A stretch of 64,000 nucleotides of DNA, taken from the IMG/VR virus record IMGVR_UViG_3300045119_000157, positions 19,579 to 83,578 of that record, one strand, 5' to 3'. The number at the start of each line of letters is the position of its first letter. The first letter of the stretch is position 1. Made by a program: the position numbers and the translations under genes. The notes under the pieces are model-generated. The model did not search any database, was not told where the DNA came from, and saw nothing but the letters and a program-made list of their open reading frames with translations. Below are positions 17,273 to 53,640 of the stretch, piece after piece. The stretch comes from a virus.

Positions 17273-20026
17273 ATGACTTATCCGTACGGTTCGATCGACG
17301 CCACGAAGGTCGACGCGACCGTCCTCCTCGGCGACCATGCGCCGCATCACGACACGCTCGCGTCGGCGCTGAATGATCTGCTCGCTGAGTTAGGCGTCGA
17401 CCCGTCCGGGGCGTTCGCGTCGCTGACCGCGCGGCTCACGAACAGTGACAGCCTGATCAACCCGTTGGCGTTGTCGCGTGGCGGTACGGGCACCACGGTC
17501 GCACCGGACGCGCTCGTCGCTCTCGCCGCTGAGGTCCTCGGCGCTGCGGGCGCGCACGCTCTACCTCCGGCGGGCGAGTCATCGACGGTGCAACGGTTCC
17601 ACCGTGACTTCGTGAACCGTTCCACGACGCCGCTGAAGATCATGTACATCGGGGACAGCGAGTTCGACTTCTCGCAGTGCAACCGTTCCGCGACGTACCA
17701 GATGGGCAAGATCTGTAACCCGCAGAACCGGCAGTTCTCCGGTCCCGGCGCGCTCCTCGCTGCCGGGTCGACGATGCCGGGAGACGTGGCGTTCGGGCTG
17801 GGTGCCGTGTCTCCTTCGACGTGGGTGTCTGTCGGGTCGCCGACGATCACGTCCGCGGCGGTGCAGAACCATCGCGGCATGGCGGGCTGCGCGTTGAAGA
17901 TGACCGACGGGCAGGCGTGCCAGTTGATCTCGGCGGTGTGGGATCACGCGAAGTTCTTCTGGCTGACACCGCTCGCGGGGTCGGGCGCGACGTTGGAGTT
18001 CTTCGTGGACGGCGTGTCAGTCCACACGTCCACGTCCACGGCAGCGGGATCGTTCGACTATTCGACGGGGACGGCGCCCGCGGCGCATGTCATCAAGATC
18101 GTGTCGCACGGGGAGAACCTGTTCGACTTCGTGCAGATGTACAGCGGGAACCATGACGCATGGTTGCAGCCGATCAGCGCGGTGCATTCGGGCTACACGA
18201 CTGGCGACTTCGCGAACTCGTGCACTGATCTCGCCGGGTACATCGCGTCGTTCGACCCGTCCGTAGTGGTCCTCGAACCGGGCGTGAACGACGCTGACGC
18301 GCCGACGTATTACACGGACATGACCACGCTGATCGGGACGGTCCGGGCGAACACGACGGCGACGGTCCTGCTGTTCCTCCCGAACGCGGTCCTCGGGCGC
18401 ACGACGTGGAACGGGTGGCGTCAGCGGGCGAAGCGGTTAGAGGCCGAGCAGAACGTTCTCCTGTGCGACGTGTCGAACTGGATGCCGGACCTGTCGGTGT
18501 CGGATCCGCTGGGGTACACGTCCGACGGTGTCCACATGCAGCCGACGGGAGCGAACGGCCGTGACATTTGGGCGAACGCGATTGTCGCTTCGCTGTTCAC
18601 CGGGCGGGTGCGTGACTTCCCGCTGTGGGAGTCCGGGTCGACGTTCGGCGGGTTCCCCGGACACGTCCGCGTCTACGACAACAATCAGGGCGGCATCGCG
18701 CTCGGGTGGTTCCTTCAGCGTGCCGACACGCAGCCGTACATCCGGATCTCGTCGGAGCCGAACAATGCGCTGAACGGAATGTTCATGGGTCCGGGCGGCA
18801 CGTCCGGGGCGGACTGCTACATCATCCGGTTGCGTCCCGGTGTCATGGGTGTCGAGGACTCGTTCTCGTTGGGTGCGTCGGGGTCCGGCGCGCTGGTCAC
18901 GGGCGCACGGCTCGCGACGAACGCTCCGCTCCCGGCGTGCACTGCTGCCGGGTCGGGTGCAGGCAAGACGCTGACCGGGAACTCGAACGGCGCTCTCGCG
19001 GCGATCGACTTCGTGACGCCAGCGGCGAACAACCGGATCATCGTGAAGGACCAGGCGAACCAGGCGGACAACGGCCTGTACGCGCTCACACAGCTAGGCG
19101 ACGTCTCGCATCCGTTCATCCTCACTCGCACGACCGGCTCTGATTCGTCGAACGACTATGCGTCCGGGATCGTGTGCTTCATCGGTGAGGGCTTGAACTA
19201 CGGCGGCTCGTACGTCCGCTCCCGGCCGACGACGGTTACCGTCGACACGACCCCGATCATCTGGACGGGACCGGGCCGGTCGAACACGACACCCGCGGAC
19301 ATCCGCTTCGGGTCGAACCGGGCGCAGCAGCGGTATGACTCCGATTTCGAGGACACTGACGGCACCGTCTCCGGGGCGGGCGGAAGGTGGGCTGTCGGGC
19401 AGCCGACGATCATCTTCCTGTCGGGCACCACGGGCGCGCAGGCAAGCCAGCAGCAGAACGCCGAGGTCCGCTGCGGTGTCATCGGGTTGGAGACGGGAAC
19501 GAACGTGGCGGGATGGGCGACGTTCACAGCGTCAGCGAGGCCGTGCACGTTCAACACTGGGCGCCGTCACAGGTACTTCGCGCTTCAGCGGCTCGACACG
19601 AACCTGCCCGTCGTGTCACCCGGCGACGACTACACGGTATGGCAGGGGTTCCTCGACTCGACGGGACTGTCAGCGGTCACGGACCCGACGGCGGGAATGT
19701 TCTTCCGCACCGACCGCGCCACAGGCAATTGGTTCGCCGTGTGCCGCCACGCCGGGACCGAAACCGCTACCAACTCCGGCGTCCCGTACTCGTCGGCGTA
19801 CACGAACCTGCGGATCGACTACGACGAGACGGCACAGACGGCGTCGTTCTTCATCAACACGACGGCCATCCCGCCCATCTCGACGAACCTGCCGACGTCC
19901 GGTGATGTGCTCCACGCCGGATGCAAAGTGAAGAAGCTGTCCGGCACAGCGAACCGGATCATTTACACCGACTACTTCGAGGCGGACATGGTGAACAGCC
20001 GGTCCCTGAACCAGAGCATCCCGTGA
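17273..20026 (+). CDS. Tail-fibre protein with SGNH/GDSL esterase-type domain
   Basis: The 917-residue protein follows a GGGAGG site. Residues about 120-445 form an SGNH hydrolase-like domain: IMYIGDSE (nucleophile Ser129), EPGVNDAD (Asn339) and SDGVHMQPTG (Asp418 and His421) are the conserved blocks I, III and V; block II is less clear. Enzymes of this type deacetylate or cleave esters on glycans. The remainder is beta-rich, with two probable carbohydrate-binding or fibre modules (about 450-700 and 700-917). I infer a receptor-binding tail protein that removes acyl groups from the host surface. Confidence 0.72.
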   Translation: MTYPYGSIDATKVDATVLLGDHAPHHDTLASALNDLLAELGVDPSGAFASLTARLTNSDSLINPLALSRGGTGTTVAPDALVALAAEVLGAAGAHALPPAGESSTVQRFHRDFVNRSTTPLKIMYIGDSEFDFSQCNRSATYQMGKICNPQNRQFSGPGALLAAGSTMPGDVAFGLGAVSPSTWVSVGSPTITSAAVQNHRGMAGCALKMTDGQACQLISAVWDHAKFFWLTPLAGSGATLEFFVDGVSVHTSTSTAAGSFDYSTGTAPAAHVIKIVSHGENLFDFVQMYSGNHDAWLQPISAVHSGYTTGDFANSCTDLAGYIASFDPSVVVLEPGVNDADAPTYYTDMTTLIGTVRANTTATVLLFLPNAVLGRTTWNGWRQRAKRLEAEQNVLLCDVSNWMPDLSVSDPLGYTSDGVHMQPTGANGRDIWANAIVASLFTGRVRDFPLWESGSTFGGFPGHVRVYDNNQGGIALGWFLQRADTQPYIRISSEPNNALNGMFMGPGGTSGADCYIIRLRPGVMGVEDSFSLGASGSGALVTGARLATNAPLPACTAAGSGAGKTLTGNSNGALAAIDFVTPAANNRIIVKDQANQADNGLYALTQLGDVSHPFILTRTTGSDSSNDYASGIVCFIGEGLNYGGSYVRSRPTTVTVDTTPIIWTGPGRSNTTPADIRFGSNRAQQRYDSDFEDTDGTVSGAGGRWAVGQPTIIFLSGTTGAQASQQQNAEVRCGVIGLETGTNVAGWATFTASARPCTFNTGRRHRYFALQRLDTNLPVVSPGDDYTVWQGFLDSTGLSAVTDPTAGMFFRTDRATGNWFAVCRHAGTETATNSGVPYSSAYTNLRIDYDETAQTASFFINTTAIPPISTNLPTSGDVLHAGCKVKKLSGTANRIIYTDYFEADMVNSRSLNQSIP

Positions 20027-20037
20027 GGGCGTGACCG

Positions 20038-22782
20038 ATGCCTGACGAACCGATCTCATCTCTCGCGGCGCAGACCAGCGGCGCTGTCGCGGCGAACGAC
20101 CTGTTCGAAACGGTCGACGTCAGTGACACGTCGCTCGCTCCGACGGGCACGAACAAGAAGCTCGCGTACTCGGATCTTGTCGCGGCGCTCACCACGTCAC
20201 TCGCGTCGAGCTTCCAGCCGGAGGACGCGGACCTCACCGCGATCGCTGCGCTCACGACGGCACCGTACGGGCGCAGCCTCCTGACGCTCACCGACCCGAC
20301 CGGCCTCGCCGGATCACTCAGCCTCGGCACGCTCGCGTTCCTCGATTCTGTCGACTCCGCGCACATCACCGACGGCACGATCGTCGATGCCGACATCAAC
20401 GCTGCGGCGGGTATCGCGTACACGAAACTCGCGCTCGCTGGGACGATCACGTCCAGTGACATCGTGAACGGCACGATCGTCGATGCGGACATAAACGGTG
20501 CCGCCGCCATCGCGCCGTCGAAGATCAGCGGCACCGCTCTCGTCACGTCCGCTATCGGAACGTCGGTGCAGGGGTTCGACGCGGAACTGTCCGCTCTCGC
20601 TGGCCTGGTGTCCGCCGCGAACAAGATCCCGTACTTCACCGGGTCGCAGACCGCGGCGCTGCTCACGCTCGACACGGACGGGACACTCGGCGCGAACCTC
20701 GACACGAACGTCGCGACGCAGAAGGCCGTGAAGACCTTCGTGGGCGCTCAGATCACGGCGCTGTCGCTCGGGTCGTTGGCGTTCCTCAGCAGCGTCGACT
20801 CCGCGCACATCACGGACGGCACCATCGTCAACGGGGACGTGAACGCGGCGGCGGCGGTTGCGTACAGCAAGTTGGCGCTGACCGGGTCGATCGTCAACGC
20901 GGACGTGAACGCGGCGGCGGCGATCGCGTATTCGAAGCTGAACCTGGCGGGCAGCATCGTGTCAGCGGACATCACGGACGGCACGATCGTGAACGCGGAC
21001 ATCAACGCGTCGGCCGCGATCGCGCAGTCGAAGATCAGCGGGCTGGGCACGATGGCGTCGCAGAACGCGTCCGCTGTGTCGATCACGGGCGGCTCCATTG
21101 CTCTGCCCGCTGGCGGCACGCTGACCGCTCCGGCGAACGGTGTCGCGATTCAGGATGCCAGCGACGCGACGAGGCAACTGGTGTTCTCGACCAGCCTGAT
21201 GTCGACGACCGGCGTCACTGTCACGGTGCAGGTCCCGAACGTGGGAGTGAGCACCGCTGACGTGCTCGTCCTGAAGGCGCTCTCGGCGGCCCTAACGAAC
21301 AAGCGGCTCACGACCGCGTCGGCGTACACGACCGGCGTCACATCGCAGATCGAGGCGCAGGGCAACGCGAACTTCCCGTTCCACGCGACGGGCGGGTTCC
21401 TCGGCCTCGACTATGTCGCCACCGAGTTCAACGGCGTAGCCGCCTGTGTCGATCTCCGCTCGACCGCCGGGACCGACATGAACAACCTCGCAGCGACGGC
21501 GTCGGGGAAAGTCATCGCCGCGTTCCACGTCGGCGGCTCGCATGACACGACCCGCGGCATGGTCGACTGCGCCGAGATCGACAACGTCGCGTCGGAGGCG
21601 TTCTCCTCGACGGACCTGACCGCGTCCGGGAACCGTTGGACGTTCTGGCAGACACCGAACGGGATGGGCGACACCGCGAAGTATCTGGCGTGGACGCTCG
21701 ACCATGACGGCCAGATGTATCCCGGCTCCCCGGATGCCCTTCAGTCCGGTGTCACCGCGACGCGGGAGTACACGACGTCGGGGATGAAGCCGCAGTCCCT
21801 GTTCGGGACTAAGAGCGGGCAGACGATCAAGGCGTCGTTCTCGACGCCGACGCTGCCGTCAGCGTTCCGCCACTCAGCGACGCAGATCATCAACGCTGCG
21901 TTCAGCGGCGCGACGTTCTACCAGGGCGGCTTCTTCCACAACCCGACGATCACGAACGACCCGACGAATGGGACGGGTGCGTGGGCGAGCGGGCTGACCG
22001 TCGGGGCGTACGGGTTCCGTGACGCGGTCACACTTCAGGTCGACACGAAGACCGGGATCAGCGTCGGCACGTACCGGGCGTTCTCGTCGCTGACGACGGT
22101 CACCGTCGCGAACAGCGGCACCATCACGAACGGTCTCATCTACGGGTACGTCGCCGGGTTGACGCTCACGTCCGGCGCGCTGTCCGCGTACTCCGGGTTC
22201 GCGACGACGGGTGTCAGTCTCGCTGCCAGCCAGAGCGTGACCACGATCCGCGGCGTCGACATCGGCCAGATCACACTGAACACGTCCGCTACCGCGACGA
22301 GCATCATCGGGTTCAATACGAGCGGCGTCACCGTCGGCCAGTCCGCGACCGTCACGACGGTCACGGGCTACACGATCGCGGACTCTGCGGTGACGGGATC
22401 ACCGATCGGTGTGATCACCACGCAGTACGGCATCGACATTCCGGCTCTGTCCGCGGCGGGCACGAACGTCGGGATCCGGAACAAGTCGACGATGCGTCAG
22501 ACGGCAGCGGTCACGCTCGGCGCTGACGCTGCCGCGACGTGGCTGCTCCATATGCAGGGCGGCAACGCGTCGACCGCCGCTATCGGGATGGACACGTCCA
22601 CGACGGGACCGGCGAACCATCCGACGTCGAGCGGCGGCGGGTCGATCTCGATCTACCACGGAGCGACGCACTGGTATCTGCTCATCTCGTTCAACAAGGC
22701 CGGGACGCAGCAGTACAAGTATCTTCTCCTCGACGACAACACGACAGTCGCGTGGGCCACTGGCACCTCACTCCCCGTCTAA
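20038..22782 (+). CDS. Repetitive tail-fibre protein
   Basis: The 914-residue protein begins with a fibre-type N-terminus (SSLAAQTSGAVAANDLFETVDVSDTS). Residues of about 100-340 contain repeats of the form SAHITDGTIV, NADINAAAAIAYSKL and LAGSI, typical of trimeric beta-helical phage fibres. Later parts are Thr/Ser/Gly-rich, with strand repeats up to a C-terminal GGGSISIYHGATHWYLLIS domain. I infer a trimeric fibre acting with the esterase-bearing neighbour. No chaperone domain is evident. Confidence 0.7.
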   Translation: MPDEPISSLAAQTSGAVAANDLFETVDVSDTSLAPTGTNKKLAYSDLVAALTTSLASSFQPEDADLTAIAALTTAPYGRSLLTLTDPTGLAGSLSLGTLAFLDSVDSAHITDGTIVDADINAAAGIAYTKLALAGTITSSDIVNGTIVDADINGAAAIAPSKISGTALVTSAIGTSVQGFDAELSALAGLVSAANKIPYFTGSQTAALLTLDTDGTLGANLDTNVATQKAVKTFVGAQITALSLGSLAFLSSVDSAHITDGTIVNGDVNAAAAVAYSKLALTGSIVNADVNAAAAIAYSKLNLAGSIVSADITDGTIVNADINASAAIAQSKISGLGTMASQNASAVSITGGSIALPAGGTLTAPANGVAIQDASDATRQLVFSTSLMSTTGVTVTVQVPNVGVSTADVLVLKALSAALTNKRLTTASAYTTGVTSQIEAQGNANFPFHATGGFLGLDYVATEFNGVAACVDLRSTAGTDMNNLAATASGKVIAAFHVGGSHDTTRGMVDCAEIDNVASEAFSSTDLTASGNRWTFWQTPNGMGDTAKYLAWTLDHDGQMYPGSPDALQSGVTATREYTTSGMKPQSLFGTKSGQTIKASFSTPTLPSAFRHSATQIINAAFSGATFYQGGFFHNPTITNDPTNGTGAWASGLTVGAYGFRDAVTLQVDTKTGISVGTYRAFSSLTTVTVANSGTITNGLIYGYVAGLTLTSGALSAYSGFATTGVSLAASQSVTTIRGVDIGQITLNTSATATSIIGFNTSGVTVGQSATVTTVTGYTIADSAVTGSPIGVITTQYGIDIPALSAAGTNVGIRNKSTMRQTAAVTLGADAAATWLLHMQGGNASTAAIGMDTSTTGPANHPTSSGGGSISIYHGATHWYLLISFNKAGTQQYKYLLLDDNTTVAWATGTSLPV
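20350..21050 (+). repeat. Tandem imperfect coding repeats in the tail fibre
   Basis: Sequence encoding SAHITDGTIV-type units occurs at about 20350, 20460, 20800 and 20970, with intervening NADINAAAAIAYSKL-type units. The repeats are similar at DNA level but not identical, consistent with fibre-shaft expansion and recombination. Confidence 0.6.
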
Positions 22783-23163: not shown

Positions 23164-23178
23164 TAGCCTCGCCCGTCG
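23164..23178 (+). promoter_or_regulatory. -10-like box for a leaderless connector gene
   Basis: TAGCCT (23164-23169) lies 8 bases before GTG at 23178. A weak hairpin (TCCCGC 23138-23143 with GCGGGA 23156-23161) precedes it. Confidence 0.35.
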
Positions 23179-24323
23179 TGGCGCAGACGTTCTCCATCGG
23201 CATCGGTGACACCGGACCGGACCTCGTCGAGAACCTGTACGAAGTCCTAGCCGACGGGACCGTCCAGCCCGCGAACCTGACCGGCGTCTCGAACCTCCGG
23301 TTCCATCTCCGCGACGCGTCCGGTACCGAGGTCATCAACGCGGCTGCGACGCTGATCACACCGTTCCCGGCGCAAGTGTCCTACACCTGGTCGCCGGGCG
23401 ACACGGCTGCCGCTGGGATGTTCCTGCGCCGCTGGACGTACACCGTCAACGGTGAGGACAAGTCGACCCCGAACGATGTAGACGGCTACCCCGTCGAGAT
23501 CGTCGACCCGAACGTGACTCCGGCGACGAACCGGCTGACATGCTCGGCGTGGTGCACGCCCGGCGACGTCGTCGTGTGCGGGCCGTGCAGCGGCACGACG
23601 CTGAACCTCGACGCTGTCGACTTCGCGATTCAGGTGGCGTCGGACCTGCTGTTCTACCTGTCGGGACGCCAGTTCACGGGTGTGTGTCCGGACACGATCC
23701 GCCCGATTCGCGATGACGCGACGGGGAACTGGTGGCGTGGCATCGGGGAGGTGCAGGTCGACTCGTCGTTCGTGTCGCGCGACTCGAACTACCGCTCCGC
23801 TGACTTCGTGAACGACCGGCGGAACATCTACTCCGAGTTGCGGCTACCGGCCTACCCGATCCGGGCGATCACGCAGGTCCGGATCGACGGGCAGGTCGTC
23901 CCGTCGTCGCAGTACCGGATCGCGGATGACAGGTTCCTGCTCGCGGTGAACGGCCAGTCGTGGCCGTACTGGCAGGACCTCACGAAGGATCCGACGCAGG
24001 TCGGGACGTTCGAGGTGCAGTACACGTATGGTGTCCCGATCCCGCCGCTCGGTGTCCGCGCCGCCGCGGCGTACGCGTGTCAGGTGGCGTTGGCGTGCGG
24101 GACGGGGGCGGGCGATTCGTGTGCGCTTCCGGTGCGGACGCAGCAGATCGTGCGGCAGGGGTTGACGGTCCGCACGAACACCGCGGACGACTACCTCGAC
24201 AACGGGAAGACGGGCGTACCGGAGGCCGACGCGTTCATCCGGGCAGTGAACCCGCACGGGTTGCAGGAACGTGCCGCGGTGATGAGTCCAGATTTCGACT
24301 GGCCTGCGTACAGGATCAGGTGA
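23178..24323 (+). CDS. BppU-like N-terminal domain fused to a head-tail adaptor
   Basis: The 381-residue protein appears to be a fusion. Residues 1 to about 105 (GDTGPDLVENLYEVLADGT, then VSNLRFHLRDASG, then SYTWSPGDTAAAGMFLRRW) match the immunoglobulin-like baseplate BppU N-terminal pattern. Residues of about 140-381 match the helical head-to-tail adaptor family: DFAIQVASDLLFYLSGRQF, IYSELRLPAYPIRAITQVRIDG, and GVRAAAAYACQVALACG. Adaptors attach below the portal. The added domain may face the capsid or tail surface. The start lacks an RBS and may be leaderless. Confidence 0.7.
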   Translation: MAQTFSIGIGDTGPDLVENLYEVLADGTVQPANLTGVSNLRFHLRDASGTEVINAAATLITPFPAQVSYTWSPGDTAAAGMFLRRWTYTVNGEDKSTPNDVDGYPVEIVDPNVTPATNRLTCSAWCTPGDVVVCGPCSGTTLNLDAVDFAIQVASDLLFYLSGRQFTGVCPDTIRPIRDDATGNWWRGIGEVQVDSSFVSRDSNYRSADFVNDRRNIYSELRLPAYPIRAITQVRIDGQVVPSSQYRIADDRFLLAVNGQSWPYWQDLTKDPTQVGTFEVQYTYGVPIPPLGVRAAAAYACQVALACGTGAGDSCALPVRTQQIVRQGLTVRTNTADDYLDNGKTGVPEADAFIRAVNPHGLQERAAVMSPDFDWPAYRIR

Positions 24324-25995: not shown

Positions 25996-26351
25996 CGGAG
26001 GAGCATCCGCTCGATGCCGTCGATCTCACGATGTTCGCCAGCGTGTACCGCGCCATGCGCGGCGCGGGTCTACCCGATCCGCGCCGCGTCGACGCGCTGT
26101 ACCTGTGGGAGATCGCCGTGCTGATCGGCGCTGACGGATACGACCGTGACCCGGAAACGGGCACACCGCGCGCCCGGAACGACGAGCACTCCCATCTCCG
26201 CGCCGACCTCGAATACCGGCGGCAGATGGCAGCGTTCGCGGCTGGGATGGGTCCGGAACCGGACCGTGCGACGCATTACACATGGGACGACGACGAACCG
26301 GACGACGGCGCCTATCTAGCGTCCGTGCTCGCTGACGGAAGCAGCCTCTAA
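25968..26351 (+). CDS. C-terminal part of the long (G-T) tail assembly chaperone, read by frameshift
   Basis: This frame has no good RBS or start near 25970. It opens upstream of the short product's stop (TAG 25993-25995) and encodes EEHPLDAVDLTMFASVYRAM followed by a RRVDALYLWEIAVLI helix, typical of the T half of actinophage chaperones. The ATG at 26031 would truncate that conserved start. The stop (TAA) shares its last base with the tape measure ATG. Confidence 0.65.
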   Translation, partial: GPWRRGRGVAEEHPLDAVDLTMFASVYRAMRGAGLPDPRRVDALYLWEIAVLIGADGYDRDPETGTPRARNDEHSHLRADLEYRRQMAAFAAGMGPEPDRATHYTWDDDEPDDGAYLASVLADGSSL

Positions 26352-29300
26352 TGGCGATCGAACAGGAACTCGTACTCGACGCTTCCAGCGCCGAGGACGT
26401 CATCGCTCAGATCGACTCGCAGCTTTCGCAGGTCAGCGAAACGTTCAAGGTCGGGTTGGCCGACGCGCTCAGCGTGCTCGGCCAGCCGATCGTCGCCCCC
26501 GTCACCGCTGACGTCACCGAGGCGCAGGCGCAGCTAGCGGAGATCCAGACTCCGCCGCCGGTCGACATCCCGGTCGTCACCGACCTCGCGACCGTCGCCA
26601 CGGAGATAGCGGCACTGGACGAGCAGCCGCCGATCGACCTGGCTGTCGACGCGGTCACCGCCCCGGCGGAGCAGTCCCTCACGGACCTTCACGACCAGCC
26701 GGACGTGTCGATCACCGCGGACGCGGACACGGCTACCGCCGCGGCGGACATCGCCGCGCTGAGTGATGTTCAAACGGTCGACGTGCTCGTCGATGCGGAC
26801 ACGTCATCGGCGGTCACCTCGATCGCGGAGGTCACGGCGGAGACACCGTCGACTTCGGTCACCGTCACCGCTGACACCGCCGACGCGACTGCCGCGATCG
26901 AGACGCTCGGGTCGGAGTCCGTCACCGCGATGGTCACCGCTGAAGCGGACACGTCGTCGGCGCAGGAGCAGCTATCCCTCCTGGACTCGCAGCCCGAGAT
27001 CGTCGTTCCCGCTACGGCGGACACGTCCGCGGCGGAGACAGAGATCGCAGCGTTGCAGGCGCAACCGGACGTCACTGTCCCGGTCGACGCGAACACGGAC
27101 GCGGCCGGGTCAGCCGTCGCACAGTTCACGTCGGACGTGCCGACCGCGACGATCACGGTCGACGCGAACACCGACGCCGTGTCCGGCGACGTCGCCGCCG
27201 CGATCGGGGACATCCCGCAGGCGAACATCGACATTTCTGCGACGGTCGATGACTCGCAGGCCGTGTCGACGCTCGACTCGTTGCAGTCTCCGCCGCCGGT
27301 CGTGGTGCCAGTCGAGGCGGATGACACGGCAGCGCAGGCCGCGATCGAGACGCTTCAGGCTCAACCGTCGGTCACGGTCACAGTCGAAGCCGACACGTCA
27401 GCGGCGGTCACCACTGTCAGCGACTTCCAGTCGCAGCAGCCCGTCGTCATTCCCGTCGAGGCCGACGATTCGGCGGCGCAGACCACCATCGCGGGTCTAG
27501 CGGTCCAGCCGACCGTCACCGTTCCCGTCGAAGCCGACACTGGCACCGCTGCCGCGCAGATCGCTGACGTCGCTGGGAACACACCGTCGGCGTCCATCAC
27601 GGTCGACGCGGACGTGTCCGCCGTGCCAGGCGAGATCGCTGACGCGTTCGGGAACCTCCCCGGCGCCGACGTGGTCATCACCGCCACAGCCGACACCGCC
27701 GACGCGACCGCCGAGATCAGCGCGCTCCAAGCGCAGCCGCCCATCACTGTCCCTGTCGAAGCGGACGTGTCCGGTGCCGTCTCCACCATCGACGAACTTC
27801 AGTCGCAGGCCACCATCACTGTCCCGGTCGAGGCGGACACCGCGAACGCTGCGGCGTCGCTCGACGCGTTGCAGGCGCAGCCGACGGTCACCGTCGAGAC
27901 GACGGTCGATGACGCTGCCGCCGCCGCGGTCCTCGACTCACTTCAGACGCAGCCGACTGTCATCATTTCTGTTGAAGCGGATGATACGGCCGCCGCCGCG
28001 GTGCTGGAAACGTTGCAGTCCGAGCCGCCGGTCGTGCTCTCCGTCGAAGCCGACGATGCGGCCGCGGCGGCGGTGCTGGCCGGACTCGAACAGCCGCCGA
28101 CCGTCACCGTCGAAGTCGACGCGAACATCGACGCGGCGTCGCAGGTCATCGACGGGCTACAAGCGCAGCAGCCCGTGTCGGTGGTGGTCGACGCGGACGT
28201 CACACAGGCGTCGTCCGCGATCGAGTCGCTTCAGGCGGTCACACCCGTCGATGTGCCCGTCATCGCGGACACCGGAGAAGCGTCAGCGTCGCTGGACACG
28301 CTTCAGGCGCAGCCGACGATCGTGGTCCCAGTCGACGCGGACACCGCGCAGATCACCGGAGCGATCGACGGGCTACAAGCGCAGCCTCCCGTCACGGTCC
28401 CTGTGGATGCGGACGTGTCCAGCGCGGACGCCACGATCGCCGGGTTACAGACGCAGGAAGCGGTCACGGTCCCCGTCGAAGCGGACATTGCCGGTGCCGA
28501 CGCGACGCTCGCTGACCTTGCTGCGCCGCCGCCGATCGTCGTCACCGCTGACACTTCAGCCGTCCCCGGCGAAGTCGAGGATGTCGTCGGGAACCTTCCG
28601 AGCGGCACTGTCGATGTCACCGCTGTCATCGACGACGCGGAAGCGTCCGCCGCTCTCGACGCGCTCCACACGCAGCCGCCCGTCGACCTGTCCGCCACAG
28701 TCGACGACAGCGAAGCCGTCACCGTCCTCGACGCGTTGCAGGCGCAGCCGACAGTGCAGGTGCCTGTCGAAGCGGACACGGTCGACGCGACCGCCGCGCT
28801 CGACGCCCTTCAGTCACAGCCGACCGTCTCGATCACCGCCGACGCGGATACGGCCAGCGCCGTCGCGTCGCTCCACGAACTTGACGCTCAGCCGCCCGTC
28901 ACCGTCATCGTGGACGCGGACACGTCCACCGCGGCCACGACTATCGCGGCGCTCGAAGCGCAGCCGCCGGTCATCATCCAAGTCGAAGCGGACGACGCCG
29001 CAGCCGCCGCTTCCATCGCGGCGCTCGACGTCCAGTCGCCGATCATCATCCCCGTCGAAGCGGACACCGCTGTCGCCGACAGTGAGATCCAGCAGACGCA
29101 GTCCGACGCCGGACAGCAGCTAACCATCCCGGTCGACGCGGACACGTCCACGGCTGACACCGAGATCGCAGCCGTCGCGGACACGGTGCCGTCGGCCACG
29201 ATCCCGGTCGACGCGGACGTCACCGCCGCCGAATCAGCGATCACCACGACCGCGGACACGGTGCCGTCAGCGGTCATCCCGGTCGACGCGGACACGTCCG

Positions 29301-32300
29301 CTGCGCTGTCCAGCCTGGACGAGGTCCGGTCCGTGGCGGAGCAGACGCTCACCGCTCCCGTCACGGCGGACACTTCCGAAGCCGAACAGCTAATCCTCGG
29401 GCTTGATAACCCGGACCCCATCGTGGTCCCCGTCACGGCGGACACGACCGAAGCGATCACAGAAATCCAGGCCGCGCAGGACGAAGCACAGCAGCCGGTC
29501 GACATCCCGGTCACAGCAGACACGTCCGGCGCATCATCCGGTGTCGATGCCCTGAAGGGTTCCGTGACCGGCCTCGGTGCCGCAGTCGGGATCGGTGAAG
29601 GCTCGGTCAAGGGACTCATCGGAGCGTTCGGTGACATGGGACCGGCCGCGGAGGCCACGGCGGGCGGTGTCCTCGCGGTCGGCGCGGCGACGGCCGCGTT
29701 CTTCAGCCACGGCCTCGACGCCGTGTCTGCTGGACAGCATTTCGATCTAATCCTCGGTGACCTCGCGGAGTCGGCGCAGCACGTAAACGTCCTCGGGCTG
29801 AACACCTCTCTCGACCAGTTGGGGATCACGTTCGGGTCGACCGGCTCGCAGATGGAGAACGCCACCTCGAAGCTCGTGCAGTTCGCGGTGAACAGCGGCA
29901 AGTCGAAGGATCAGGCGCTTCAGTTCGCGCAGAACATCACGGCACTGTCAGCGCGTGCGATCTCGCTGAACCCGGCACTCGGTGATCTAGCGGACGTTAC
30001 CGACAGTCTCGGTCTACGAATCGGTCGAGGCGGACGGTTCGCTCAACAGTTCGGTCTCGACCTTTCGACAGCGGAAATCCAGACCCGAGCGTTCTCGGAC
30101 ACAGGCAAGTCGTCGGCGTCGGATCTGACGTTCATGGAGAAGGCGATCGCGGCCACCGAAGTCGCGGCCGAGAAATACGGCGGCACGCTCGCCGGGACCG
30201 TCGCTGCTGGATCCCATAACGCTGCTATCGAACTCGAATCGCTGAAGGCGTCCTTCACGGAAGCGGCCGAGAAGATCGGTGAACCGCTCGTCGCTCCGGT
30301 CATCGCGCTCCTTCAGCAGAGCATCCCGATCGCGGAGGAGTTCGGGCAGACCCTCGGGTTAGTCGCTGAGGACGTGCTCCCTATCTTGCAGGCCGCGCTC
30401 GACGCGATCGGACCGCCGATCGGGCTGATCGCTGACGCACTCCAACTCGTGAACCCGGCGCTCGAAGCGTTCGCGAACGTGATCGGGAGCATCCCCGCCC
30501 CGATCATCGACGCTGGCGTCGCTATCGCCGCTCTCGTCGTCGGGTCGGACATTCTCGTCGGTGTCTTCCTCTCGATCCCCGAACTGATCGCAGGAGCGTT
30601 CGCCGCGATCGGTGGAGTGATCGACTCGGCCGTGGTCGCGATCGCTGCGGCTAACCCGGTGATCCTCGGGATCGCTGCGGCCATCGCGGTCGTCGTCTCC
30701 GCGATCAGCATCTTCGACGGGTCACTGTTCGGGGAGACGAAGTTCCACGATGACGTCACCGACGCCATCGACAGGCAGGTCACGTCCCTCAGCGATCTGA
30801 GCACCGCGACCCGAGACAGCGTCGAAGCGACCGTGGACACCGCAGCCAAGACCGGCGACTTCGCCGATCGTCTGAACGCGGCAGGCGTGTCCATCGACGA
30901 CCTCACGAACGCGCTCATCGACGGCGGCGACGCGTTCAAGACCTATGCCGACAAGATCCTGATCGCCGCGATCGCTAACGGGGCGAGCTTCGACACCGTC
31001 AAGAACCTCGCCGGTGAACTACAGCACCTAAAGCAGGAGACGGAAGACACCGCACAGTCGACCCTCGACCATGCTGTCGCGGCTAAGCAGATCACAGCTG
31101 AACAGGAAAAGCAGGAGATCGCCACGCACGGCGTCGTCGGCGCGCTCGCTGATCTTCAGCCGCAGATCGACGCGGCGACGCAAGGCCAGAAGGACCAGGC
31201 CGACGCGGCCGCGGCGAACGTGCAGCAGCAGAACAAGCTCACCGACGCATACAACGCGCTCGGCACCGCAGCCCCGGCGGTAGCCGCATCCCTCGCCGCG
31301 ATCGCGTCGAGTTCGGCGGACACGAGCAGCGCGCTCGGGTTCTTCGCGATCTCGGTGCAGCAAGCGAACCTTTCCACCGATCAGTTGCAGGCCGTGGCGG
31401 ACCACCTCGGGGTCAGCGTCGACCAGCTAAAGGCGTTCGTGAAGGGAGTGAACGACGAACTCGACAACTTCGTGAAGGGCGCCACCTCGAAGCTGCCGAC
31501 GATCCAGACAGCCATCGACGACGCGCTCGATCCGTCGAAGCGCCCGAAGCCGGTGATCGTCGACCCGAAGGCGCTGGAAGCCCAGTTCCAACAGGTGATC
31601 GATGACACCAACGCGTTCAATCTTCGGATCGCGTTCCTTCAGCAGCAGGGGTTCAACAACCTCGCGGGCGCGGCCGCTACCGCGGGACCGGAGTTCACTA
31701 AGGGTCTTGTCGATGCGATCCAGTCGGGCGGACCGGATGTCGGTGCGGCGATGGATAAGACCGTCGGCGCGGCGAATCAGGTGGTGGCGAATGAGCCGGA
31801 CAAGCTGCGGACGGCCGGGTTCCAGATCATCGACGCGACGGGTCAGATCTTCTCGACTGCGGCGGCGACGATCGGTCCGAACTTCACGGTCGCGAAGGGT
31901 GTCCAGACCGGACTCGATACGGCAGCGTCGGTCCTGTTCGGTAACACGTCCGTGTCCGGTGCGGCTCAAACGTCAGCGCAGAACACGGCGGCGGCGTACA
32001 GCGCCGGGATGACGCTCGACCAAGCCGTCCAGAACGGACTCGTTCAAGCCGGGAAAGTCTTCGGGGGACCGGACGCCATCGTCGCTGGACAGTCCGCAGA
32101 GAAGGCCGCCGAGGCGATGGCGCAGAGCTTCGGGCAAGGTCTGACGTTGGAGCAGTCCGTCGAACTGGGACTCACGACAGTCGGGACCGTGTTCGGCGGT
32201 CCGAGCGCGAACGTGGCGGGCCAGTCCGCGCAGACCGCTGCGGCGAACGTCGCGGCTAGCTGGGGTGACGGTCTGACGTTGGAGCAGGCGACGGAACTCG

Positions 32301-33802
32301 GCATCCAGAACGTGCCCGGTGTCATCAAGAAGTCGACGGACTCGTCCGTCGCCCCGGCTGCTCAGGCGGCGGGAACGCAGACGGCGGGGAGTTTCAGTAC
32401 CGGACTCGCCGGGGCGCCCGGCCAGGCGCAGCAGGTGTTCACTCAGGTCGGTACGGGCATCGTCGGGTCCGCTGAACCTCTGAGCATCCTGGCTGCGACG
32501 GCCGGAGGAATCATCGGGAAGGAGTTCTCGAAGGGTGTCGGGTCCGGCATCTCTGACGCGGACAGTGTGAACACGTCCGGCACGAACCTGATCGACGCGA
32601 TGGTCGAGATCTTCACTCCGCAGGCGACCGCGGCGGGCACGTTCATCGGGGCGGTGTTCGATAACGGCATCGGTGCTGGTATCGGTGATGCGGGCACGAT
32701 CGGCGCGCAGGGGACGACCCTGTTCGATGCGATGGCGGAGGTGTTCACGCCGGAGGCGGTAGCGGCGGGCACGACGGTCGGAGCGGCGTTCGTTGGCGGC
32801 ATGTCCCTCGGGATCGCGACGACAGGCGATATCGGTCCGCAGGGCATCGCTGTGATCGACGCGACGTCTCAGGTGCTTTCCGTCACGGCTATGGCCGACG
32901 GGCGTCTCGTCGGTTTGGCGTTCGACGCTGGCATCGGTGCGGGACTGATCGAACGGTCCGGTGCCGTGTCGGCCGTCGCTCAGGCTGAGATCGAGATCGC
33001 GGCGACGAGCGCTGGGCACACGGCAGAGGAGGGCGGCGTCCTCGTCGGGAGGATCTACTCCGAAGCGACGGCTGTGGGCATCGAGTCGCAGGGCAACTTC
33101 GTGGAACAGGCCGCGCAGGACACGATCGGCGCGGCAGCGATCGACGCCGGGAACTTCGCGGGCGCGGCGGGCATCCTCGTCGGCCGCACGTTCGATGAGG
33201 GCGTCACCGTCGGAATGGTGCAGCAGGTCGGGAACATCGCCGGGATCGCGGATGAGGTGACCGCCGCCGCGGCCGGATCCGCGGCCGGGTTCGCGTTCCA
33301 GGCGGGACGGTTCGTCGGCGGCGAGTTCGACCTCGGCCTGGCCGAGGGCATGATCCAGTTCTCGGGCGGCGTGCAGCAGGCCGCGGCGGCAGCGGTGAAC
33401 GCAGCCGAAGCAGCAGCGCGGGCGGCGGCGGGCGCTCATTCCCCGTCGCTGCTGTTCGCTGAACTCGGGAAGGACATCAGCGACGGCATCGCCGCCGGGA
33501 TCACGTCCCGCCAGTCCGCGGTGACATCCGCCGTGTCCGGTGTCGTGAAGGCCGCAGCGAACACGCCGGTCACGGCGGTCGCGTCAGTGCCGTTCACCGG
33601 GCTTCAGGCGGCGGCGGGATCCGCGGCGACAGGCGACGCGCCGGTCACGATCGGTCCCTTCACCATTGACGTGCAGGCACCGCCGGGGATGACGACACAG
33701 CAGGCAGCCGCACTCGGGCAGACCATCGGAGACTCGATCGTGGACCGGATCACACCCGCAGCGGCACGCCGGTTGACGACCGCTACACGGGTCGCGTCCT
33801 GA
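26351..33802 (+). CDS. Tape measure protein with extensive internal repeats
   Basis: At 2483 residues this is the largest gene, in the expected position after the chaperones. Residues 50 to about 1070 consist of 42 tandem units, mostly 24 residues, with a consensus like PVEADTSAAxxxIxxLQAQPPVTV. Residues of about 1385-1457 are long hydrophobic stretches, usual for the membrane-associated part of tape measures. Residues of about 1863-1994 hold three 44-residue repeats, and about 2050-2360 hold seven units with an xxGxxFxxGxxxGI core. The end has HSPSLLFAELGKDISDGIAAGI, a common tape-measure C-terminal signature. The protein sets tail length and may be injected with DNA. Confidence 0.9.
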   Translation: MAIEQELVLDASSAEDVIAQIDSQLSQVSETFKVGLADALSVLGQPIVAPVTADVTEAQAQLAEIQTPPPVDIPVVTDLATVATEIAALDEQPPIDLAVDAVTAPAEQSLTDLHDQPDVSITADADTATAAADIAALSDVQTVDVLVDADTSSAVTSIAEVTAETPSTSVTVTADTADATAAIETLGSESVTAMVTAEADTSSAQEQLSLLDSQPEIVVPATADTSAAETEIAALQAQPDVTVPVDANTDAAGSAVAQFTSDVPTATITVDANTDAVSGDVAAAIGDIPQANIDISATVDDSQAVSTLDSLQSPPPVVVPVEADDTAAQAAIETLQAQPSVTVTVEADTSAAVTTVSDFQSQQPVVIPVEADDSAAQTTIAGLAVQPTVTVPVEADTGTAAAQIADVAGNTPSASITVDADVSAVPGEIADAFGNLPGADVVITATADTADATAEISALQAQPPITVPVEADVSGAVSTIDELQSQATITVPVEADTANAAASLDALQAQPTVTVETTVDDAAAAAVLDSLQTQPTVIISVEADDTAAAAVLETLQSEPPVVLSVEADDAAAAAVLAGLEQPPTVTVEVDANIDAASQVIDGLQAQQPVSVVVDADVTQASSAIESLQAVTPVDVPVIADTGEASASLDTLQAQPTIVVPVDADTAQITGAIDGLQAQPPVTVPVDADVSSADATIAGLQTQEAVTVPVEADIAGADATLADLAAPPPIVVTADTSAVPGEVEDVVGNLPSGTVDVTAVIDDAEASAALDALHTQPPVDLSATVDDSEAVTVLDALQAQPTVQVPVEADTVDATAALDALQSQPTVSITADADTASAVASLHELDAQPPVTVIVDADTSTAATTIAALEAQPPVIIQVEADDAAAAASIAALDVQSPIIIPVEADTAVADSEIQQTQSDAGQQLTIPVDADTSTADTEIAAVADTVPSATIPVDADVTAAESAITTTADTVPSAVIPVDADTSAALSSLDEVRSVAEQTLTAPVTADTSEAEQLILGLDNPDPIVVPVTADTTEAITEIQAAQDEAQQPVDIPVTADTSGASSGVDALKGSVTGLGAAVGIGEGSVKGLIGAFGDMGPAAEATAGGVLAVGAATAAFFSHGLDAVSAGQHFDLILGDLAESAQHVNVLGLNTSLDQLGITFGSTGSQMENATSKLVQFAVNSGKSKDQALQFAQNITALSARAISLNPALGDLADVTDSLGLRIGRGGRFAQQFGLDLSTAEIQTRAFSDTGKSSASDLTFMEKAIAATEVAAEKYGGTLAGTVAAGSHNAAIELESLKASFTEAAEKIGEPLVAPVIALLQQSIPIAEEFGQTLGLVAEDVLPILQAALDAIGPPIGLIADALQLVNPALEAFANVIGSIPAPIIDAGVAIAALVVGSDILVGVFLSIPELIAGAFAAIGGVIDSAVVAIAAANPVILGIAAAIAVVVSAISIFDGSLFGETKFHDDVTDAIDRQVTSLSDLSTATRDSVEATVDTAAKTGDFADRLNAAGVSIDDLTNALIDGGDAFKTYADKILIAAIANGASFDTVKNLAGELQHLKQETEDTAQSTLDHAVAAKQITAEQEKQEIATHGVVGALADLQPQIDAATQGQKDQADAAAANVQQQNKLTDAYNALGTAAPAVAASLAAIASSSADTSSALGFFAISVQQANLSTDQLQAVADHLGVSVDQLKAFVKGVNDELDNFVKGATSKLPTIQTAIDDALDPSKRPKPVIVDPKALEAQFQQVIDDTNAFNLRIAFLQQQGFNNLAGAAATAGPEFTKGLVDAIQSGGPDVGAAMDKTVGAANQVVANEPDKLRTAGFQIIDATGQIFSTAAATIGPNFTVAKGVQTGLDTAASVLFGNTSVSGAAQTSAQNTAAAYSAGMTLDQAVQNGLVQAGKVFGGPDAIVAGQSAEKAAEAMAQSFGQGLTLEQSVELGLTTVGTVFGGPSANVAGQSAQTAAANVAASWGDGLTLEQATELGIQNVPGVIKKSTDSSVAPAAQAAGTQTAGSFSTGLAGAPGQAQQVFTQVGTGIVGSAEPLSILAATAGGIIGKEFSKGVGSGISDADSVNTSGTNLIDAMVEIFTPQATAAGTFIGAVFDNGIGAGIGDAGTIGAQGTTLFDAMAEVFTPEAVAAGTTVGAAFVGGMSLGIATTGDIGPQGIAVIDATSQVLSVTAMADGRLVGLAFDAGIGAGLIERSGAVSAVAQAEIEIAATSAGHTAEEGGVLVGRIYSEATAVGIESQGNFVEQAAQDTIGAAAIDAGNFAGAAGILVGRTFDEGVTVGMVQQVGNIAGIADEVTAAAAGSAAGFAFQAGRFVGGEFDLGLAEGMIQFSGGVQQAAAAAVNAAEAAARAAAGAHSPSLLFAELGKDISDGIAAGITSRQSAVTSAVSGVVKAAANTPVTAVASVPFTGLQAAAGSAATGDAPVTIGPFTIDVQAPPGMTTQQAAALGQTIGDSIVDRITPAAARRLTTATRVAS
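26498..29560 (+). repeat. 42 tandem ~24-residue (72-base) coding repeats
   Basis: I counted 42 units from residue 50 of the tape measure protein. Most are exactly 24 residues; a few are 25-27. Three longer or divergent units that share an AVPGE...GNLP or SGDV...GDIP core fall at positions 10, 16 and 29. Each unit reads as a beta strand (VTVPVEAD), a helix (TSAAxxxIxxLQ) and a turn. DNA copies differ by many silent changes. Confidence 0.9.
31937..32332 (+). repeat. Three 44-residue coding repeats in the tape measure
   Basis: Units begin at FGNTS, FGGPDAI and FGGPSAN, each followed by a helix and then a G-x-(T)LxQ(A/S)xxxG motif near residue 28-38 of the unit. The spacing is 132 bases. Confidence 0.7.
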
Positions 33803-50636: not shown

Positions 50637-51440
50637 GTGCCCGCCAAGAAACCGCCACGCTGGACTGAGTACGTTGACGTTGACGCGCTGATTCCTGACG
50701 AGCGAAACCCGAAGAACCACGCCGACAAGCTCCTTGACGAATCGCTTGCACGCTTCGGGTACACCGAACAGGTCATGATCGATGAACGCACCGGCAAACT
50801 CGTCGCCGGTCACGGCCGACGAGAACTGGTACTGCGAGCACGCGACACAGGCGCCGACCCTCCTGACGGAATCGTTGTGACAGCCGGGCGGTGGCGAGTC
50901 CCGGTGCAACGCGGCTGGGCGTCCGCCAACGACGACGAATCTCTCGCATACCTTGTGGCATCCAACCGGCTCGTTGAAACCGGAGGATGGGAACAATCGA
51001 TTGCATCGACCGTCCAACAGTTGAGCGACACCGCGCTCGGCCTCGTAGGCACCGGCTATACCGAAAGTGATCTCCAACTGCTACTGGCCGAAGCCGAGGC
51101 GATAACCGCAAACGAAGGCGACGATCCCGACGCTGGGGTACTGCTTGCAGCGTCAGATGTCACGCTGGGAGAACCGCAGCACACGGTCGAACGTGGCGAC
51201 GTGTGGAACGTGGGGAAGCATGTGCTCGTGTGTGCAGACGTTATGACTGAACATGCCCTGTGGGCACCACTGCTCGCAGAAGACGTGCTGTTCTGTCCCT
51301 ACCCCGGTCCATATGTCGCTCTCGCTGGACGCATCGATGAAGTCGTGCTGCTGCTAGTCCAACCTGACACGTATCTCGCAGGCCATGTCGTCGACAAGTT
51401 CGCAGCGGTCAACGGTGAAGACGAGGTGAACCGACGGTGA
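50637..51440 (+). CDS. ParB-like domain fused to a degenerate DNA methylase remnant
   Basis: The 267-residue protein has a ParB/Srx-type N-terminus: VDVDALIPDERNPKNHADK and LVAGHGRRELV (the GHGR motif). From about residue 180, GDVWNVGKHVLVCAD resembles the start of adenine/cytosine methylases (xxGDxxxLGxHxLxCGD), but the catalytic DPPY is replaced by CPYPGPY and the remaining MTase fold is missing. It opens the 7-deazaguanine cassette and may target or license modification. Codon use is visibly less GC-biased than in upstream genes. Confidence 0.6.
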   Translation: MPAKKPPRWTEYVDVDALIPDERNPKNHADKLLDESLARFGYTEQVMIDERTGKLVAGHGRRELVLRARDTGADPPDGIVVTAGRWRVPVQRGWASANDDESLAYLVASNRLVETGGWEQSIASTVQQLSDTALGLVGTGYTESDLQLLLAEAEAITANEGDDPDAGVLLAASDVTLGEPQHTVERGDVWNVGKHVLVCADVMTEHALWAPLLAEDVLFCPYPGPYVALAGRIDEVVLLLVQPDTYLAGHVVDKFAAVNGEDEVNRR

Positions 51441-52525
51441 CGGTGCTGCAAACGACCGGCACATGGGATCCCGCTGACCGGCACACGTATTTCTTGGCTG
51501 GCGACGGGCGTCCGTCACACACCGGCTACCCACACCAGTACGTGCTTCTTGCTGTCAATGAGCTATGCGACGGTTCGGGCAATGTGAAGGCGAAGCAACG
51601 CGACCGGGTTGAAACGCTGCTGGATAACGATGTGCGTGTCGTGATCGATTCCGGCGTGTTCTGGCTAACGAACGAACACAAACGCGCTCATAACATCACG
51701 ATGGATGCGGCCCTGTCCCTTGCCCCAACAGAGATCGACGGGTTCGACTGGCTGTGGTCGTCTTACCTTGCTGTGCACCGGCTGTGGGGCGACAAGGTGT
51801 GGGGATACATCGAACTCGACCAGGGCGGCGCCGACAACAAACGAAAGACGCGAGCCAAGCTGCACGACGAAGGCATTACACCGATGCCCGTCTACCACCC
51901 ACTCAATGACGGATGGGAGTACTTCGACGAACTCGCGTCAACGCACGACCGTCTTTGCTGCGGCAACATCGTTCAAGCCCCCGCCCCGTTGAGAATGCGT
52001 CTCATCCATACCATCTCGGAACGCCACCGCGCGTATCCTGACCTGTGGGTCCACTTTCTCGGCTTCACACCGAACCAGTGGATAAACGCCCTACCAGTGG
52101 ACTCTTGTGACTCGTCAACCTGGCTCGATTCAGTTCGCTGGGCGCCAGCGAAAGACTGGGTAATGAGCGCCGCTCTCGTGATGAAGCCCGTTGTGTCGCG
52201 AACTGTCACGGTGCGATGGACGTTCGACGGATGGCATCACTGGCCTGACGCACCATCGCACCGCGCGTATCTTGCCGACAGCCACCGCCACCTGTTCCAC
52301 GCCGCAGTGACCATCTCCGTCGCACATGACAACCGCGACGTTGAGTTCCACGATCTGCAAGACACCGCGAAGGCGTGCACGCCGCCAGGTCGCGACTGGA
52401 AGGACTGGTCATGCGAACGCATCGCTGAACACGTCGCCAGCCAGATCTCTCGTGAGGTCGACGGCCCCATTGCGGTGTCGATCGGTGAGGACGGCGAGTG
52501 TGACGCCACGGTGACCATCGGATGA
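51437..52525 (+). CDS. dpdA: DpdA-like DNA transglycosylase fused to a PTPS/QueD-like domain
   Basis: The 362-residue protein has TGT/DpdA features: VVIDSGVFWL with D71 in place of the TGT DSGGFQ, YIELDQGG with D128, ITPMPVYHP with H154, CGNIVQ, and VDSCDSSTWLDSVRW near 221-234. DpdA enzymes replace guanine in DNA with a 7-deazaguanine base. Residues of about 256-362 (DGWHHWP, DSHRHLFHAAVTISV, NRDVEFHDLQ, SCERIAEHVASQI) follow the PTPS/QueD order of metal His residues and strands. That fusion is unusual. GTG overlaps the previous stop. Confidence 0.72.
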   Translation: MTVLQTTGTWDPADRHTYFLAGDGRPSHTGYPHQYVLLAVNELCDGSGNVKAKQRDRVETLLDNDVRVVIDSGVFWLTNEHKRAHNITMDAALSLAPTEIDGFDWLWSSYLAVHRLWGDKVWGYIELDQGGADNKRKTRAKLHDEGITPMPVYHPLNDGWEYFDELASTHDRLCCGNIVQAPAPLRMRLIHTISERHRAYPDLWVHFLGFTPNQWINALPVDSCDSSTWLDSVRWAPAKDWVMSAALVMKPVVSRTVTVRWTFDGWHHWPDAPSHRAYLADSHRHLFHAAVTISVAHDNRDVEFHDLQDTAKACTPPGRDWKDWSCERIAEHVASQISREVDGPIAVSIGEDGECDATVTIG

Positions 52526-52953
52526 TCGCCGTGTCGGTATGCCACAACTTCGAGACGGCTCACCGGCTGTTCGGGCAGGGACCGGGCGGGAAGTGCTGGA
52601 ACCTTCACGGCCACTCGTTCCGCTGCGAAGTCGAAGTGACCGGCGAACCGGACGAACACGGGATGATCGTCGAGTACGGGGCGTTCAAGGCAGCCCTCCG
52701 CGGCTACGTGGACGACCGGCTCGACCACGGCGCCGTGCTTTCCACCGACGACCCGCTGTGTGCGCCTCTGCTGGACAGCGGCTGCAAAGTCCTACGACTG
52801 GCTCACGATCCCACTGTCGAAGCGTTAGCAGCGCACCTGGCGACCGTCGTGGACATCCAGATCCTCGGGACGCTGGCGAACGGCGAGCATTGCCGGGTGT
52901 CCCGCGTCCGGGTCGATGAGACGGCAACGAACTCGGCGACATGGACTCCCTGA
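52522..52953 (+). CDS. queD: 6-carboxytetrahydropterin synthase (QueD)
   Basis: The 143-residue protein has FETAHRL with H14, CWNLHGHSF with Cys25, H29 and H31, MIVEYGAFK, DDRLDHG with H69, and DPTVEALAAHL. These are the three zinc His residues, catalytic Cys and Asp-His pair of QueD/PTPS. QueD converts dihydroneopterin triphosphate to 6-carboxytetrahydropterin in 7-deazaguanine synthesis. It overlaps DpdA by 4 bases and QueE by 13. Confidence 0.88.
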   Translation: MIAVSVCHNFETAHRLFGQGPGGKCWNLHGHSFRCEVEVTGEPDEHGMIVEYGAFKAALRGYVDDRLDHGAVLSTDDPLCAPLLDSGCKVLRLAHDPTVEALAAHLATVVDIQILGTLANGEHCRVSRVRVDETATNSATWTP

Positions 52954-53636
52954 CCGTCTCGGAAGTGTTCGGTCCGACAATCCAAGGCGAAGGACCGTCC
53001 TGCGGTCGGTTGGCGGCGTTCGTGCGGCTCGGGCTGTGCAACCTCGATTGCTCGTGGTGCGACACGCCGTATACGTGGGACTGGACCGGCAAGAACGGCG
53101 AACCACAAGACCGAACAAGGCTCTACCGGGCAACACCCGAAGACCTAGCCGCTGAAGTGACAGCTATGCGTGTCCCGCTAGTCGTCGTGACCGGCGGCGA
53201 ACCGCTCGTCCAGAAGGCTGCGCTCGGCCGACTCGTTGACACTCTCCACGGCTTCCATCTCCGGGTTGAGATCGAAACGAACGGATCGCTGCTGTGCCCG
53301 CCTGAGTGGCCTGTCCGGTTGAACGTGTCACCCAAACTTCGTCACTCTGGTGTTGACCCGTCATACGCGGCGACCGCGATGACGCTGTACCGCGATGACC
53401 CGCGCGCCGTGTTCAAGTTCGTCGTGGACGACGTGCTGTCGTTCCCCGAACTTGACGACCTGATCGACAAGTACGCCGTCGCACCGGAACGCGTGTGGGT
53501 CATGCCCGAAGGCCGCACCGACGGAAAGATGACCGGCAAGCGCGTCACCCGCATCGCTGAGTCCGCGATCACGCGGCGCTACAACGTGTCAACACGACTC
53601 CACGTTCTGCTGTGGGGCGACGAGAGAGGACGCTGA
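52941..53636 (+). CDS. queE: 7-carboxy-7-deazaguanine synthase (QueE)
   Basis: The 231-residue protein has VFGPTIQGEGPSCGR, then GLCNLDCSWCDTPYTW with C33, C37 and C40 (CxxxCxxC, the radical-SAM [4Fe-4S] site), then VVVTGGEPLVQ and VEIETNGSL. This is a complete QueE set. The enzyme converts 6-carboxytetrahydropterin to 7-carboxy-7-deazaguanine (CDG). It is followed by the FolE fusion; no QueC, which would make preQ0 from CDG, is seen. Confidence 0.9.
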   Translation: MDSLTVSEVFGPTIQGEGPSCGRLAAFVRLGLCNLDCSWCDTPYTWDWTGKNGEPQDRTRLYRATPEDLAAEVTAMRVPLVVVTGGEPLVQKAALGRLVDTLHGFHLRVEIETNGSLLCPPEWPVRLNVSPKLRHSGVDPSYAATAMTLYRDDPRAVFKFVVDDVLSFPELDDLIDKYAVAPERVWVMPEGRTDGKMTGKRVTRIAESAITRRYNVSTRLHVLLWGDERGR

Positions 53637-53640
53637 CCGA

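Follow-up and report, generated by a model that had tools for sequence, protein, structure and literature searches.

A tape measure protein (TMP) in which strand-helix repeats make up 41% of the chain raises the question of whether the rule of about 1.5 Å per residue needs a helical TMP, and the locus described here offers a test case. The window, meaning the whole 64,000-nucleotide stretch that was analysed, comprises bases 19579-83578 of an 83,578-base metagenomic virus record. The features of the locus are as follows.

23178..24323, plus strand: head-to-tail adaptor (PHROG 783, E 2.4e-52), the anchor for finding relatives
26351..33802, plus strand: TMP gene, 2483 aa, assigned by PHROG 1272 match and tail-gene neighbourhood
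26351..26500, plus strand: TMP N-terminus including a diverged unit 0 (near residues 8-30), from tiling
26501..29581, plus strand: 42 tandem strand-helix units, TMP residues 51-1077, from cyclic tiling and HMM
27158..27238, plus strand: unit 10, 27 aa, with a distinctive core (residue 270)
27602..27682, plus strand: unit 16, 27 aa, with a distinctive core (residue 418)
28541..28621, plus strand: unit 29, 27 aa, with a distinctive core (residue 731)
29582..30616, plus strand: conserved TMP core segment 1, residues 1078-1422, 35% identical to the TMP of contig L166 (phmmer)
32003..33457, plus strand: second array, about 11 copies of a 44-aa repeat, residues 1885-2369, from the lag-44 self-score
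33804..37317, plus strand: two genes downstream of the TMP gene, the second a tail protein; homologues also follow the TMP gene in L166

The ORF at 26351-33802 starts with ATG and has no internal stops. In a profile search, PHROG 1272 (tape measure) matched residues 1289-2133 with an E-value of 7.8e-9. Portal, major capsid, major tail and head-tail adaptor genes lie upstream and tail genes downstream, so that the ORF is a long gene lying between genes for tail assembly and for minor tail proteins, the gene order that characterizes siphophage TMPs. Arthrobacter phage Atuin and Actinomycetia phage DSL-LC01 share this order, and their major capsid proteins rank among the annotated ones closest to that of the window. 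Because the PHROG match and the tail-gene neighbourhood are joined by a core homologous to those of two other TMPs, the ORF encodes a TMP, as the preliminary description had proposed from the letters of the DNA, and most likely a functional siphophage one.

Several neighbouring genes have features of their own. At its N-terminus the adaptor is about 120 residues longer than the DSL-LC01 and Atuin homologues, which lack this extension. A 917-aa protein among the structural genes (17273-20026) matches GDSL-like lipase/acylhydrolase (PF13472, E 7e-8), and a 66-bp tandem repeat of 2.2 copies (20818-20960) lies within a 914-aa minor tail protein-like ORF. Further downstream, a cassette at 51437-54531 resembles those for 7-deazaguanine DNA modification, and a ParB-like/DNA methyltransferase-like protein (50637-51440) is encoded immediately upstream of it. 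The cassette consists of the following genes.

51437-52525: queuine tRNA-ribosyltransferase-like protein
52522-52953: QueD-like protein
52941-53636: QueE-like protein
53641-54531: GTP cyclohydrolase I

Cyclic profile tiling of the TMP placed units end to end between residue 51 and about residue 1077, with a score of 1410 compared with 41-64 for five shuffles of the protein. The units follow the consensus VEADTSAAxxxIaaLQAQPPVTVP and are mostly 24 aa long (range 22-27). An HMM built from 17 units recognized 44 domains in the TMP (E = 1.6e-156), and the count of 42 units was made by hand. These results bear out the 42 units of about 24 residues, covering 41% of the protein, that had been reported before; the array itself stood, and its bounds moved from 26498-29560 to 26501-29581. 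By its position, the diverged unit 0 would be the counterpart of the conserved IGSAYVxIRA strand-helix start of relatives. Units 10, 16 and 29, previously singled out for a longer shared core, are indeed all 27 aa long and have a SAVPGE..D..GNLP-type core in common, the likeness being clearest between units 16 and 29.

The composition of the array is extreme. It contains 171 Asp and Glu residues against 2 Lys and Arg, a net charge of about -169, and only 3 aromatic residues in 1027, compared with 65 in the remainder of the TMP. With so few aromatics, it lacks Trp/Phe marks at a fixed 11- or 18-residue spacing. A composition check found no long hydrophobic segment in the array, and together with the charge and the scarcity of aromatics this speaks against the earlier suggestion of a membrane-active or injected domain. 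Proline accounts for 7.1% of residues in the array and 2.9% in the remainder of the TMP, corresponding to 1.7 prolines per unit.

The strand-helix reading is based on per-position propensities and a low-confidence AlphaFold model. The V.V.V.A segment has strand propensity and a single hydrophobic face; from DTS to LQ the propensity is for helix, with A8, I12 and L15 lying on the same side; and the prolines are placed between the strand and helix segments. AlphaFold modelling of seven units gave a pLDDT of 43, with helix and strand alternating along part of the chain, and that of the relatives' N-termini gave a pLDDT of 38. The strand-helix character proposed in the preliminary description thus agrees with both lines of evidence. 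Being proline-rich, the array is not one continuous helix; since 1.7 prolines per unit and strand-favouring segments rule out a continuous α-helix, a rise of 1.5 Å per residue is not structurally guaranteed.

We then considered the age of the array. Units share on average 36% identity in protein and 58% in DNA, the best DNA pair reaches 75%, and no exact DNA repeat is longer than 26 bp. At identical residues, codon identity is 0.57, close to the 0.51 expected from codon usage alone. Compared with shuffled unit order, unit similarity was strong at lag 1 (neighbours being most alike) and at lag 13 (p 0.0005), and weakly raised at lags 6 and 10 (p about 0.02); each p-value refers to a single lag, with no correction for the 29 that were tried. 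Units 10, 16 and 29 are spaced by 6 and 13 units, which fits the lag signals. The block duplications suspected earlier are therefore supported, for a putative block of 13 units and more weakly for one of 6. Judged by its divergence, the array is an old expansion by tandem and block duplication; the low unit identity and the 26-bp longest exact repeat argue against an artefact of read mapping, which the preliminary description had named as one finding that would overturn it. As a whole, the reading of the repeats as an assembly artefact or as non-functional drift is barely credible. The record is metagenomic, as such a reading would have it, but no two units exceed 75% DNA identity, all 2483 codons are open, and the consensus has stayed constant despite near-saturated codon differences.

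Comparison with relatives, also asked for at the outset, identified two TMPs with homologous cores. One, in L166/G417, has 1032 aa and about 4 units (phmmer whole-protein E 2e-60) and matches four tail/tape-measure PHROGs; the other, 928 aa long in L428/G416, likewise carries about 4 units, its partial copy L415 matching with E 3e-44. The capsid and adaptor proteins of both are homologous to those of the window. Like the TMP of the window, these TMPs start with acidic, aromatic-free strand-helix units of about 24 aa, whereas they have about 4 units rather than 42 and a 44-aa array that is short or absent. Set against their lengths of 1032 and 928 aa, most of the excess of the 2483-aa protein is the array. 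By this comparison, the array of the window is a roughly tenfold expansion of a module already present in TMPs.

Smaller versions of the module are more widespread. TMPs starting with a strand-helix unit plus 0-6 more were found in contigs L034, L080, L087, L098, L148 and L337-L383 and in Rhodococcus phage Braxoaddie, Corynebacterium phage PSonyx and Arthrobacter phage Atuin; unit counts in relatives were partly made by eye. No strand-helix unit was seen in the TMP of DSL-LC01, despite the shared gene order. A 3-unit profile, which recovers both the window and all 11 known small arrays used as positive controls, found no match at 1e-5 and no comparable array in 396 actinobacterial genomes; near relatives with large arrays may nonetheless exist, since the collections may lack records very similar to the window. 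When the TMP was compared with annotated phages by blastn and tblastn, there was no match. The low-complexity filter of BLAST probably masks the array, and BLAST with the array alone gave only weak matches, to TMPs of Rhodococcus and Mycobacterium phages. A related-locus search with the whole TMP confirmed no locus. DNA patterns (V[DE]ADTSAA, and two V[DE]AD motifs 24 residues apart) were searched in viral and GTDB contigs; the matches were mostly chance, yet they yielded L034, L087, L098, L148 and L166. Streptomyces phage Mischief19 encodes a homologue of the adaptor (L412, 10001-10852) and has no annotated tape measure gene within 10 kb of it. None of the matched models in Pfam and NCBIfam describes the N-terminal module, through which TMPs can lengthen, and no paper on strand-helix repeats in TMPs was found in the open-access literature.

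The rest of the protein has grown as well. Core segment 1 begins with a Gly/Ala-rich hydrophobic stretch. Outside the 24-aa array the TMP of the window has 1406 aa, compared with 900 and 798 aa in the two core-homologous relatives, so its core has not been shortened by the array. The second array has a lag-44 self-score of 174, against at most 45 in shuffles, and F, W or Y stands at or near the start of most of its units. A short version is present in L166 (score 81 at lag 42), while the score of 34 in G416 is shuffle-like. Jointly, the two arrays make up most of the 1450-residue length difference between the TMPs of the window and L166. Enlargement at two places is what would be expected if total length is under selection.

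Previous work on other phages bears on whether such an array would be counted. In TP901-1, tail length tracks TMP length across deletions of repeats and of the hydrophobic region, with an N- plus C-terminal part worth about 127 residues excluded from the count (PMC5099701). That uncounted terminal part is a point against a tape role, as the array of the window is N-terminal. In mycobacteriophage TM4, tails became about 20 nm shorter when a 114-residue TMP region bearing a peptidoglycan-hydrolase motif was deleted, which means that an enzyme-like region counts as tape at about 1.5-1.75 Å per residue (PMC1796659). The TMP is oriented with its C-terminus at the tail tip and its N-terminus headward, and it forms a hexamer in HFTV1, where the lumen is about 36 Å wide, and a trimer in Douge (PMC12494034, PMC13033339, PMC10721106).

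On balance, we lean towards the array being extra tape in a siphophage ruler, in an uncultured phage whose tail length is predicted from the gene alone. A strand-helix module at the TMP N-terminus would have been expanded to 42 copies by old tandem and block duplication, and during tail assembly the array would be threaded through the lumen of the tube, on the side nearer the head. The growing tube would count it at roughly 1.5 Å per residue, i.e., about 3.6 nm per unit and about 154 nm in total. The predicted virion tail is then about 350-370 nm long, about 2.4 times the tails that the closest relatives would have. Were the array compact or located outside the tube, the expected tail would measure about 220-240 nm. 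With 41% of its TMP in strand-helix repeats, and two core-homologous relatives that have about a tenth of the units, the phage provides a natural test of rulers.

The amphipathic strand and helix faces would also be expected of a folded two-layer α/β solenoid. The array may be a compact parallel α/β solenoid or a head-proximal cap, rising about 5 Å per unit to about 21 nm and not setting length, and the proline break between the one-sided hydrophobic strand and the helix, as well as the helices and strands along the chain of the low-confidence model, would fit this fold. However, neither AlphaFold run produced a confident tertiary fold. The unit consensus lacks the LxxLxLxxN of leucine-rich repeats, a Pfam search of the TMP found no leucine-rich repeat or other α/β solenoid family up to E 1, and a PDB sequence search returned nothing meaningful, with no solved relative under E 0.1. 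A lumen of about 36 Å, as in HFTV1, would leave scant room for several solenoids side by side in a hexamer or trimer, and the TM4 region was counted as tape in spite of its enzyme motif. We consider this compact form unlikely, though worth keeping in view; the absence of a predicted fold and the TM4 result likewise leave unsupported the earlier argument that the array must fold compactly and would be unable to scale with tail length.

An extended form other than a plain helix can also be envisaged, in which the helix of each unit is a short coiled-coil bead and the strand an inter-chain β link, giving a segmented oligomer with its own rise per residue. The helix hydrophobics are 4 and 3 residues apart, like a coiled-coil stripe, TMPs are known as trimers and hexamers, and the 24-aa pitch is regular, almost all units containing a proline break. 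The argument is purely geometrical, and we regard this arrangement as quite improbable. That the TMP measures with a non-helical α/β repeat, its 42 units lined up in the lumen as an extended, segmented oligomer that has a particular rise per unit, appears decidedly improbable. Possibly one unit would correspond to one tail-tube ring, since 24 aa at 1.5 Å each make 36 Å; if this reading were true, an α/β tape would carry physical graduations different from those of a coiled coil. Finally, the units may be docking sites for tail assembly chaperones, which bind the TMP in lambda, or an electrostatic sleeve beside the DNA end, the copies serving solubility or ejection and not length. The extreme acidity of the array, shared by the two relatives, agrees with such a role, but the Atuin-type homologues of the N-terminal module lack this acidity, which means that charge is not conserved, and we hold this proposal to be very improbable. 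The preferred reading thus remains that of extra tape.

Among known systems, the TM4 TMP resembles that of the window in having probably non-coiled-coil sequence within a TMP, and differs in that this is one motif with enzyme similarity rather than a repeat array (PMC1796659). TMP repeats of 11 or 18 aa with Trp/Phe marks, 44-aa blocks and aromatic-marked 11-aa periods have been described (Belcaid et al. 2011, PMC3271669). As in these and in TP901-1 (PMC5099701), the window has tandem duplicated units whose number alters protein length, and its 44-aa array resembles the 44-aa blocks. The 24-aa array, in contrast, lies at the N-terminus, has strands and prolines but no aromatic marks, and reaches 42 copies. 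It belongs with the N-terminal modules of actinophage-type TMPs (Atuin, Braxoaddie, PSonyx and the IMG/VR contigs), which likewise place tandem V.V.ADTS.A..I..L units ahead of the first hydrophobic segment, but these have 0-6 units, often of 26-30 aa, and are not acidic. The expansion is unusual in degree and not in kind, an extreme copy number of a common N-terminal TMP module.
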